DNA from: Geobacter sp.
Lineage (GTDB): Bacteria > Desulfobacterota > Desulfuromonadia > Geobacterales > DSM-12255
NCBI GenBank assembly: GCA_009886125.1
Contig: VFJK01000083.1
Location: 1-43,170, forward strand
DNA: 43,170 nucleotides
Reading direction: 5' to 3'
In this document: positions 38,868 through 43,170 of the stretch, piece after piece
Numbering within the stretch: position 1 is the first letter of the stretch
Layout of the letters: the number at the start of each line of letters is the position of its first letter
The notes under the pieces: model-generated
Told to the model about the DNA's origin: nothing
Database searches by the model: none
Seen by the model: only the letters and a program-made list of their open reading frames with translations
Position numbers and translations under genes: made by a program

Positions 38868-38896
38868 TTGACAACATATAATGTTTTTGGTACGGT
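38868..38896 (+). promoter_or_regulatory. Probable promoter of the toxin-antitoxin pair
   Basis: A perfect TTGACA (38868-38873), 17 bases and TACGGT (38891-38896), the latter preceded by TGG as an extended -10. A TATAAT at 38877 is too close to this -35 and has no good partner. With the first choice, the start would lie near 38903, so the toxin may begin at ATG 38913 instead of 38901. Confidence 0.5.
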
Positions 38897-38900
38897 GAAT

Positions 38901-39164
38901 ATGAAGAGTCCGATGAATGCAGCAGATGCAAAGAAACTGCTCAAAAGAATTTTAGAGTTTGGCGAAGTAACTTACTCGCAACCACACGCAGTTGACCGAA
39001 TGAAGGAACGTACTCTTTCAATGGTTGATTGTGAGAATGTTTTACGTGGTGGGAAAATAGAACCTGACGGGGTTAACCGATTTAAGGTCAGCACCAACAA
39101 ACTAACCGTAGTCATTGAATTTATATCAGATGACGAAGTTCTTGTTGTTACTGTTTGGAGGTGA
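38901..39164 (+). CDS. DUF4258-type toxin (MqsR/RelE-like size)
   Basis: Counting from ATG 38901 the product has 87 residues, MKSPMNAADAKKLLKRILEFGE, with the SQPHAVDRMKERTLSMVDCENVLRGGKIEPDG stretch and LTVVIEFISDDEVLVVTVWR end. The H-A-x-x-R-M-x-x-R helix followed by a beta sheet with I-V-T-V-W is how DUF4258 proteins look, a family placed with RelE/BrnT-like toxins. It is directly followed, two bases on, by an MqsA-like antitoxin gene. A toxin-first order is typical for mqsRA and higBA. An RNase role is an inference. The start could also be 38913. Confidence 0.8.
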   Translation: MKSPMNAADAKKLLKRILEFGEVTYSQPHAVDRMKERTLSMVDCENVLRGGKIEPDGVNRFKVSTNKLTVVIEFISDDEVLVVTVWR

Positions 39165-39166
39165 TT

Positions 39167-39667
39167 ATGATTTGCCACGAATGCAATAAATCAGAAATGA
39201 TCGAGCGACATGAAAATGTTCGCTACGATGAATCAGGTCTGCCAAATGTGGTACTCGAAGCGGTAAAGGTTCGTCAATGCCCTACTTGCGGCAATCGACT
39301 TGTCACCATTCCGCGTTTATCTGAACTACATAGATGTATTGCTGTGCATCTTGTAAAGAAGATTGCTCGTCTTGCGCCTGCGGATATCCGTTTTTTGCGT
39401 AAATCACTTGGATGGTCTAAAAATGATTTCGCAAAGAAAATGCATGTAAATATAGAGCAGGTATATAGATGGGAAAGCGACAAATCTCCAAAACCAATGA
39501 TGATTCAGAGCGAGCTTTTGCTTCGTGCATTTGTTGCTATTGGAAAGAAAATTGAAAACTATGACGAGCAAGTAGACCAATTGGCTACTATTGATGACTT
39601 GGAAGTTTCACCATTTTCCATGGTATTCGACAATGGCTGGCATGAGCATCAATTGGTAGGCGCTTGA
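39167..39667 (+). CDS. MqsA-type antitoxin (zinc finger + Xre helix-turn-helix)
   Basis: From ATG 39167, with GGAGGTGA in front, the protein has 166 residues. Two CxxC pairs (C3/C6 and C38/C41) make the N-terminal zinc domain that binds the toxin in MqsA. A helix-turn-helix follows at about 73-108 (FLRKSLGWSKNDFAKKMHVNIEQVYRWE). The tail to 166 is longer than that of E. coli MqsA (131 residues). It would neutralise the toxin and repress the operon, perhaps at the AAGTATGCG repeats. Confidence 0.88.
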   Translation: MICHECNKSEMIERHENVRYDESGLPNVVLEAVKVRQCPTCGNRLVTIPRLSELHRCIAVHLVKKIARLAPADIRFLRKSLGWSKNDFAKKMHVNIEQVYRWESDKSPKPMMIQSELLLRAFVAIGKKIENYDEQVDQLATIDDLEVSPFSMVFDNGWHEHQLVGA

Positions 39668-41694: not shown

Positions 41695-42591
41695 CTACAT
41701 CTTGAATAAAGGAGCGTTAAGCTTCCCGGACAACGAATCAATTACCTGATCACATTCTGCCATAACGAGACTCGTCAAAAAAAACCAAAAGGATTTATTT
41801 TCTACCGTTTCGATAACGATATTCGATGGCAAAAAGCGCTTCATCTCCTGTTCAAAGGCAATGCGCAAGCCAGCATCTATCTTAAGTAATTCCCGGCGAT
41901 CACTGAGTAATCCCACAAAACTATCCACCGAATGACGATGATCGGCAATCTTTCTCTCCACTAACTCAATTGGTAAAAGTATCCCCTGCTGTTTCAACCA
42001 GACAATATCCCAGAGATCACGATTTTTGATTCGTCCCGGACGCAGCGCCAGGGCGACCATTTTGTCAGCCAGTATTTCTTCCCGGCTTTCAACCTGCAAA
42101 ATCAACCCCGATGTCCCCATGTCAATACCATAATAGTTGCGCAACATCATTGGCCGTTTGTCATAACTGGGCACTGCACACACATCAATATTGATCCGCT
42201 GTACAGGCATCCCTTTCTGCTCCGGACGAGTCACCATCTTCAGCTTCCAGGTATCTACATTGCCTGTCTCCCGCCTGGGCTCACTGACCTCTACCTTCAA
42301 TCCATATTTTGTGAACAGCTTTTCAATTAGCAGTGTTGGGAGTTTGCTCAAAGATTCTCGACTGAAATCTATACCGCCAGTGAAATCAAGATCTTCACTC
42401 AAGCGGTTCGAACCGTAACATCCCCTCAGACAGGTTCCACCAATAAACGTCAACTTTTCAAGCAAGCCGATGCTACTCATCTCTCTAAGGATATCGTGAT
42501 GCAGAAGCTCTTTTTCCACAACCATTGAGAGTGGATTCAAGGTAGCATTATCTATCATTGCCTGAGCAACCAGGCGTTCAAACAGGCTCAT
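41695..42591 (-). CDS. abiEii: AbiEii-type nucleotidyltransferase toxin
   Basis: The 298-residue protein carries the nucleotidyltransferase motif GGTCLRGCYGSNRLSEDLDF (51-70), with D67 and D69 as metal ligands, then INIDV (133-137, D136), and the later EEILADKMVAL and NRDLWDIVWL stretches usual in AbiEii. AbiEii toxins add nucleotides to tRNA acceptor ends or block growth in a similar way and can stop phage spread. It overlaps the antitoxin gene by 14 bases, so the pair is coupled. Both genes read on the minus strand from the promoter at the window end. Confidence 0.92.
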   Translation of the reverse strand: MSLFERLVAQAMIDNATLNPLSMVVEKELLHHDILREMSSIGLLEKLTFIGGTCLRGCYGSNRLSEDLDFTGGIDFSRESLSKLPTLLIEKLFTKYGLKVEVSEPRRETGNVDTWKLKMVTRPEQKGMPVQRINIDVCAVPSYDKRPMMLRNYYGIDMGTSGLILQVESREEILADKMVALALRPGRIKNRDLWDIVWLKQQGILLPIELVERKIADHRHSVDSFVGLLSDRRELLKIDAGLRIAFEQEMKRFLPSNIVIETVENKSFWFFLTSLVMAECDQVIDSLSGKLNAPLFKM

Positions 42592-43135
42592 TCACAACAC
42601 CCCAGTCTATCAAATCAAGATTACGTCTGGCTGCCTTCATATCCCTTAGAGCCAGCGCCACGGAAGCACGCCAGAGATGGCAGCGCGCATCATACTCAAG
42701 TTGATCCTTGAGATCTTCAGGTTTTTGCGACGTATGAACAAACTCTATCGTTCCCCAATCACCACAACGTATCACATTACTTCTGCCGGTTGACATAAGC
42801 GTAATCCAGTTGATCGGAACTTGAGAAATTACCCCTGAATCACTCAAGGCAGTTTCAAAGCTTATGTAATTAAATTCATCGGCTCGCAGCCTGGCTGCAG
42901 CATGAAATAACAGCAATCCCTGTGGATATTTCACTTTTGGATAGAGATAGAGCCCTCGACAGACACGCCTGAAAAGACCTGCCTTTTCAGCTCGGCTTAT
43001 CAGAACTTTAAAAGCGCCGGGGCTTAATGTAAGGTGAACCGCACGCAGATCGGAAAGGGTGAAGAGGTAGTGATCATCCGTCGCAAGTGATTCAATAACG
43101 TTCGTAAGTTGCTTGATCGGCTGGAGCGTTGACAT
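42578..43135 (-). CDS. abiEi: AbiEi-type antitoxin and transcriptional repressor
   Basis: The 185-residue protein has an N-terminal winged helix (LFTLSDLRAVHLTLSPGAFKVLISRAEKAGLFRRVCRGLYLYP), matching the AbiEi_3-like antitoxin pattern, followed by FNYISFETALSDSGVISQVP, a segment shared by AbiEi families. AbiEi represses its own promoter by binding inverted repeats. ATG 43135 has no Shine-Dalgarno sequence, but it lies seven bases after the -10 box, so the message is predicted to be leaderless. It overlaps abiEii by 14 bases. If the real transcript starts outside the window, the start choice would stay the same. Confidence 0.9.
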   Translation of the reverse strand: MSTLQPIKQLTNVIESLATDDHYLFTLSDLRAVHLTLSPGAFKVLISRAEKAGLFRRVCRGLYLYPKVKYPQGLLLFHAAARLRADEFNYISFETALSDSGVISQVPINWITLMSTGRSNVIRCGDWGTIEFVHTSQKPEDLKDQLEYDARCHLWRASVALALRDMKAARRNLDLIDWGVVNEPV

Positions 43136-43170
43136 GACATAAAGTTACACTAACTGTAACTTTATGTCAA
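43135..43170 (-). promoter_or_regulatory. abiE promoter inside a perfect inverted-repeat operator
   Basis: On the minus strand TTGACA (43170-43165), 17 bases and TAACTT (43147-43142) form a promoter; the abiEi ATG starts seven bases after the -10. TGACATAAAGTTACA (43135-43149) and its exact reverse complement (43155-43169) flank the five bases CTAAC, so a 15-bp perfect palindrome covers both promoter boxes. This is a strong candidate AbiEi operator. Confidence 0.85.

Follow-up and report, generated by a model that had tools for sequence, protein, structure and literature searches.

A predicted leaderless abiE toxin–antitoxin operon in Geobacter with a candidate promoter inside its putative AbiEi operator

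Introduction

How is an antitoxin gene transcribed and translated when its apparent promoter lies in a palindrome and its start codon follows at once, with no ribosome site before it? This question is raised by the end of contig VFJK01000083.1 of Geobacter sp. (GCA_009886125.1), where an abiE operon begins on the minus strand. The window that we analyzed is the entire contig, 43,170 bases. An earlier note on this DNA had proposed that the abiE promoter is buried in a perfect repeat, that the mRNA is leaderless, and that the resulting control would be unusual for a defence system.

AbiE of S. agalactiae, as described by Dy 2014 (PMC3985639), is bicistronic, and its winged-helix AbiEi represses its own promoter via overlapping inverted repeats. 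The AbiEi homologue Rv2827c of M. tuberculosis (Rv2827c-Rv2826c) is likewise described as binding inverted repeats across its promoter and repressing it (PMC7319586).

Results

By sequence, the locus is a type IV (AbiE) toxin–antitoxin operon with predicted toxicity and repression: an AbiEi antitoxin, an adjacent AbiEii/DUF1814 protein, and a promoter-overlapping inverted repeat are all present. The abiEi gene (42578..43135, minus strand) encodes a predicted antitoxin and autorepressor of 185 aa that matches PF13338 (1.8e-7), PADLOC AbiEi (1e-62), and NCBIfam NF047376 (187.8 bits against a cut-off of 150). It overlaps by 14 nt with abiEii (41695..42591, minus strand), which encodes a predicted nucleotidyltransferase toxin of 298 aa matching PF08843 (1.8e-28) and PADLOC AbiEii (1.4e-100). 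AbiEii has no NCBIfam match, and its translation fits the GG...DhD motif, with GG, 14 residues, and DLD. A GGGG at 42600..42603 (minus strand), within abiEi and 8 nt before the abiEii ATG, is a possible Shine-Dalgarno site for the toxin gene. Because phmmer found no solved structure for AbiEi and nothing better than E = 0.6 for AbiEii, we used fold comparison instead. A structure model of AbiEi from 26 sequences has a mean pLDDT of 90.4, and Foldseek with this model returned two matches only at E <= 0.001, 6y8q (AbiEi of S. agalactiae) and 1zel (Rv2827c). A further fold comparison gave 1zel a Z of 10.6 over 175 residues and 6y8q a Z of 8.8 over 158.

A probable second toxin–antitoxin pair lies near abiE (38868-39667, plus strand); its MqsA-family antitoxin gene (39155-39667; TIGR03830, 3.8e-20) follows a 98-aa frame that has no counterpart in NCBIfam. 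In the nearest relatives (L007:171-2436 and L008:3671-4509), abiE lies amid other small toxin–antitoxin-like gene pairs, which were named by eye on the basis of their translations.

Read on the minus strand from the contig end, the DNA before abiEi is TTGACA-N17-TAACTT-TATGTC-ATG. The candidate -35 box, TTGACA (43165..43170), matches the sigma-70-type consensus at 6/6 positions, the spacer is 17 bases, and the candidate -10 box, TAACTT (43142..43147), matches at only 3/6. The earlier note had put both boxes inside the 15-bp perfect repeat; the -10 box does lie wholly in the right arm, but the first T of the -35 box falls one base outside the left. The note was also right that the -10 box abuts the start codon, but the six bases TATGTC, not seven, separate the box from the A of the ATG. 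With this 6-nt discriminator, the predicted transcription start is the A of the abiEi ATG itself (43135, minus strand), giving a predicted leader of 0 nt from the promoter geometry. A stock promoter scan reported no promoter at abiEi, because it requires at least 4/6 in each box and the -10 box has 3/6. Scored by hexamer frequencies, the candidate promoter in the palindrome reaches 10.1.

No Shine-Dalgarno match precedes the abiEi ATG (duplex energy +0.1 kcal/mol), where the note had seen no room for a ribosome site. An in-frame TAA at 43145-43147, inside the -10 box, lies 12 nt before the ATG, and the bases between contain no start codon. It excludes an upstream in-frame start, so that ATG 43135 alone can serve as the start in this part of the frame. 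With it falls the second half of the note's own refuting case, in which another start codon would have a ribosome site in front of it. The AUG start and missing Shine-Dalgarno site expected of a leaderless message are thus both found, the latter against a genome median of -5.6. This median comes from 160 other ORF starts of the genome, for which the most-upstream ATG was taken, so that some starts are wrong; 18 of the 160 are at 0 or more, and the median indicates that the genome is not one without Shine-Dalgarno sites. None of these 160 starts has a promoter scoring at least 10.1 at a distance of 5-9 nt, and across both strands of the genome, a promoter as good stands at that distance from 5 of 7862 ATGs.

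The palindrome also appears to create a mirror promoter-like site, ATGACA-N17-TAACTT (43134..43162, plus strand), that points away from abiEi. One base of symmetry in the mirror -35 is lost to the start codon, and comparable plus/minus pattern pairs are seen in two relatives.

The palindrome itself, the proposed AbiEi operator (43135..43169), is a perfect inverted repeat of 15+5+15, with arms at 43135-43149 and 43155-43169 around a 5-nt gap, and forms a symmetric site shared with abiEi relatives. At 15 bp, its arms are longer than those of any other perfect inverted repeat in the window (gap up to 20; the runner-up has 11 bp), and they exceed the longest repeat in 20 of 20 dinucleotide shuffles, which ranged from 8 to 13 bp. 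The genome has arms of 14-15 bp at other places too (one of 15 bp in 221,866 bases), so the position of the palindrome is as telling as its length. The operator pattern is present in a single copy in its own genome, where a search for a second target, and hence a regulon, found none. Across 277 genomes of the class, the TTGACA-form operator with an abutting ATG (at most 3 mismatches) was found in five, all at abiEi starts and none elsewhere, and a reversed-pattern control gave 0 matches in the same 277. Because the contig ends one base past the palindrome, upstream context is available from relatives only.

We collected homologues from 25 loci of the species collection, 26 of 277 class genomes, and 26 of 395 phylum genomes. 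Many of the class and phylum homologues were weak, and rows were restricted to tblastn E <= 1e-6. Removal of duplicates (L007, L008, L011, L014, and L021) and startless fragments (L048, L049, and L055) left 48 rows; L041 is masked upstream, leaving 47 readable rows for the promoter, symmetry, and Shine-Dalgarno counts. Three further loci, L107-L109, were read by eye outside these counts, and none has TTGACA in the arm. Most of the 47 rows have a recognizable symmetric site, with a 16-base core matched at at least 13 positions; the site is poor or misplaced in some, and automatic core placement is visibly wrong in L039, L047, L082, and L084. Complementary arm pairs number 494/720, whereas 1000 column shuffles give 458 +/- 7 and never more than 481, a difference that relatedness inflates. 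At one outer arm position, T-A, G-C, C-G, and A-T pairs are all seen. Such pairing is the pattern expected where a symmetric protein pair reads the site. Overall, these comparisons support the prediction that the palindrome serves abiEi as a conserved operator.

Carriage by phages or plasmids was considered and rejected: viral contigs contained no abiEi relative and no match to the operator pattern, phages gave 1 of 50,697 records, at 31%, and plasmids gave 35 records, every one below 60% identity. In G107, two abiEi fragments stand at contig ends, L056 (contig 91, residues 1-40) and L055 (contig 31, residues 51-183), possibly one gene split by assembly.

TTGACA is the outer hexamer of the left arm in 6 of the 47 rows: the window, L032 (=L007), L005, L033 (=L008), L056, and L077. 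In five of them the ATG lies 6 nt past TAACTT; in L077 the first ATG is 8 nt past TAACCT, and a nearest-ATG rule gives 11 nt, in which case five of the six are close. The full arrangement of TTGACA-N17-TAACTT-6 nt-ATG, with no Shine-Dalgarno site and an in-frame stop in the -10 box, recurs in L032, L005, L033, and L056. Shine-Dalgarno energies range from -0.1 to +0.9 in the six rows, meaning no match in any, whereas the other 41 rows have a median of -3.0, with 8 lacking a match (-1 or above). These 41 rows have different outer hexamers, such as TCTACA, TATACA, TACACA, and TCAACA, and in most of them the start codon (ATG or GTG) follows 15-22 nt past the -10-equivalent and is preceded by a Shine-Dalgarno match. 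Two of them, L082 and L084, have a seemingly close ATG that reflects misplaced cores, and both have strong Shine-Dalgarno matches. The two groups differ in Shine-Dalgarno energy (Mann-Whitney p = 0.0024) and in -10-to-ATG spacing (Fisher 8e-5), but the rows are not independent, because a single clade (100/99) holds four of the six with TTGACA. In this tree, which omits L030, L041, and L056 and adds L055, L077 and the fragment from L056's genome fall outside the TTGACA clade, in the same half, with weak support.

The best promoters of the other rows often lie further upstream, overlapping the left arm or center of the palindrome, and would give leaders of ~23-38 nt. They read TTGAnn-N17-TATACA or similar, or TTGACA-N17-TACATA (e.g., L078, L079, L080, L012, L013, L036-L040, and L042), or TTGCAn-N16/17-TACAAT or TATACT (e.g., L043, L044, L046, L081, and L082). 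As a group, these upstream promoters score a mean of 7.6 versus 5.2 in shuffled DNA; single assignments are insecure, since the observed median is matched or exceeded in 15% of shuffles. Judged from sequence, the operator seems to stay put while promoter position, start codon, and ribosome site shift in concert.

The same operator family lies upstream of abiEi in L015-L023 and L029, which are mostly Pseudomonas. In several Pseudomonas-group rows (L016, L023, and L029), GTTACA-N17-TAGAGT ends 7 nt before the ATG, which may represent another, independent register of the leaderless kind. In some rows of L015-L023/L029 there is, in addition, a promoter-like site further up that would give a leader of ~22 nt.

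Discussion

The best explanation, and one that we regard as probable, is a leaderless abiEi message made from a sigma-70-type promoter within AbiEi's own operator. RNA polymerase would recognize the left arm's TTGACA and the right arm's TAACTT, and transcription would begin with the A of abiEi's AUG, or at most about 2 bases from it, giving a leaderless message. AbiEi, as a winged-helix repressor, would bind both arms, occlude both promoter boxes, and so shut off its own operon, and the AbiEii toxin would be translated off the same message via its overlapping start. The anatomy of the site, the protein family, the conservation of the symmetric site, its specificity for abiEi, and the joint pattern of TTGACA, abutting ATG, and no Shine-Dalgarno site are all observed here; the use of sigma-70, the position of the 5' end, and the binding and repression by AbiEi are inferred. 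The features that count against this reading are the 3/6 match of the -10 box, the blank stock scan, the shared clade of four of the six TTGACA rows, the 8 of 41 other rows that also lack a Shine-Dalgarno match, the weaker additional site in L033, and the end of the contig, which cuts off the window's own upstream DNA. In addition, TAACTT is a conserved operator core even in relatives with leaders and is uninformative by itself. As predictions from sequence comparison, the note's occluded promoter is well supported and its leaderless mRNA is the best reading.

The palindrome sits at the extreme end of the contig, where an assembly fold-back could in principle have produced it, but L007, L008, L005, and L056 have the homologous palindrome together with unique upstream DNA, which refutes an artefact. 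The same contig end leaves room for a main promoter beyond it, with the palindrome acting as an operator or leader hairpin before the same ATG, still without a Shine-Dalgarno site. Promoter-like sites do lie further up in most relatives, and the palindrome, if transcribed, would fold into a strong hairpin (-19.8 kcal/mol for 60 bases). However, the best upstream-zone promoters in the TTGACA rows score 1.4 (L032), 1.7 (L005), 6.7 (L056), and 7.5 (L033, whose weaker additional promoter-like site lies 30 nt up), compared to 10.1 in the palindrome. A hairpin abutting an AUG that lacks a Shine-Dalgarno site is, moreover, expected to be translated poorly. We therefore consider a main promoter beyond the contig end unlikely.

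It is also conceivable that the spacing is a by-product, that the -10 box is too poor to function, and that the operon is weakly expressed by read-through or from another sigma factor. The 3/6 match and the negative stock scan speak for such an account. Against it, the full-consensus TTGACA at 17 bp recurs in six rows, always with a close ATG and no Shine-Dalgarno site, and we find it very improbable.

The preferred leaderless, self-repressed operon resembles S. agalactiae abiE in being bicistronic and in having inverted repeats that overlap the promoter. According to the S. agalactiae account (PMC3985639), however, that operator consists of two 23-bp boxes 3 bp apart, and its transcription start was mapped 26 bp upstream of an ATG with a ribosome site; here there is one 35-bp site, the ATG abuts that site, and no ribosome site is found. 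Rv2827c is reported to bind four 23-bp repeats in two pairs rather than one 15+5+15 site, and a leaderless message like the one that we predict here is not, as far as we found, described for Rv2827c-Rv2826c (PMC7319586).

Leaderless messages are known for other toxin–antitoxin and regulatory genes, and the note's description of this control as unusual was overstated: both antitoxin operons and autoregulated regulators with leaderless messages have been published before. In M. tuberculosis, 32 of 37 toxin–antitoxin gene pairs with a primary start are given as leaderless (Cortes 2013, PMC3898074), a genome-wide mycobacterial habit, whereas the genome studied here mostly uses Shine-Dalgarno sites. 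Mapped leaderless messages are also reported for PaaR2 of an E. coli O157 toxin–antitoxin locus, which in this resembles lambda cI (PMC8630535), for PY54 cI/cro (PMC4488713), and for many C genes of restriction-modification systems (PMC4824078). As these sources describe them, PaaR2, lambda cI, PY54 cI/cro, and the C genes are, like AbiEi here, DNA-binding regulators with operators at the promoter, but they belong to other protein families and have other operator and promoter geometry. Mycobacterial surveys aside, a search of a collection of open-licence papers turned up no account of a leaderless AbiE. What this locus would add to known leaderless autoregulated antitoxins is a predicted leaderless AbiE in a genome where translation otherwise mostly relies on Shine-Dalgarno sites.

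A broader scenario, in which the operator stays fixed while the promoter has slid through at least three registers between Shine-Dalgarno-led and leaderless forms, and in which damage to initiation by phage or stress shifts the antitoxin:toxin ratio, seems to us decidedly unlikely as a whole. If it is true, synthesis of the antitoxin (70S-type initiation) and of the toxin (Shine-Dalgarno or coupled) would respond differently to ribosome state; release of the toxin by ribosome state, which the note had suggested, is speculation, toxin and antitoxin being predicted to share one message. The relatives nevertheless offer what looks like a natural series, in which the same repressor and a similar operator are combined with an antitoxin message that is predicted to be leaderless or Shine-Dalgarno-led depending on the group. 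This series would permit a direct test of whether leaderless translation alters the behavior of a toxin–antitoxin pair.
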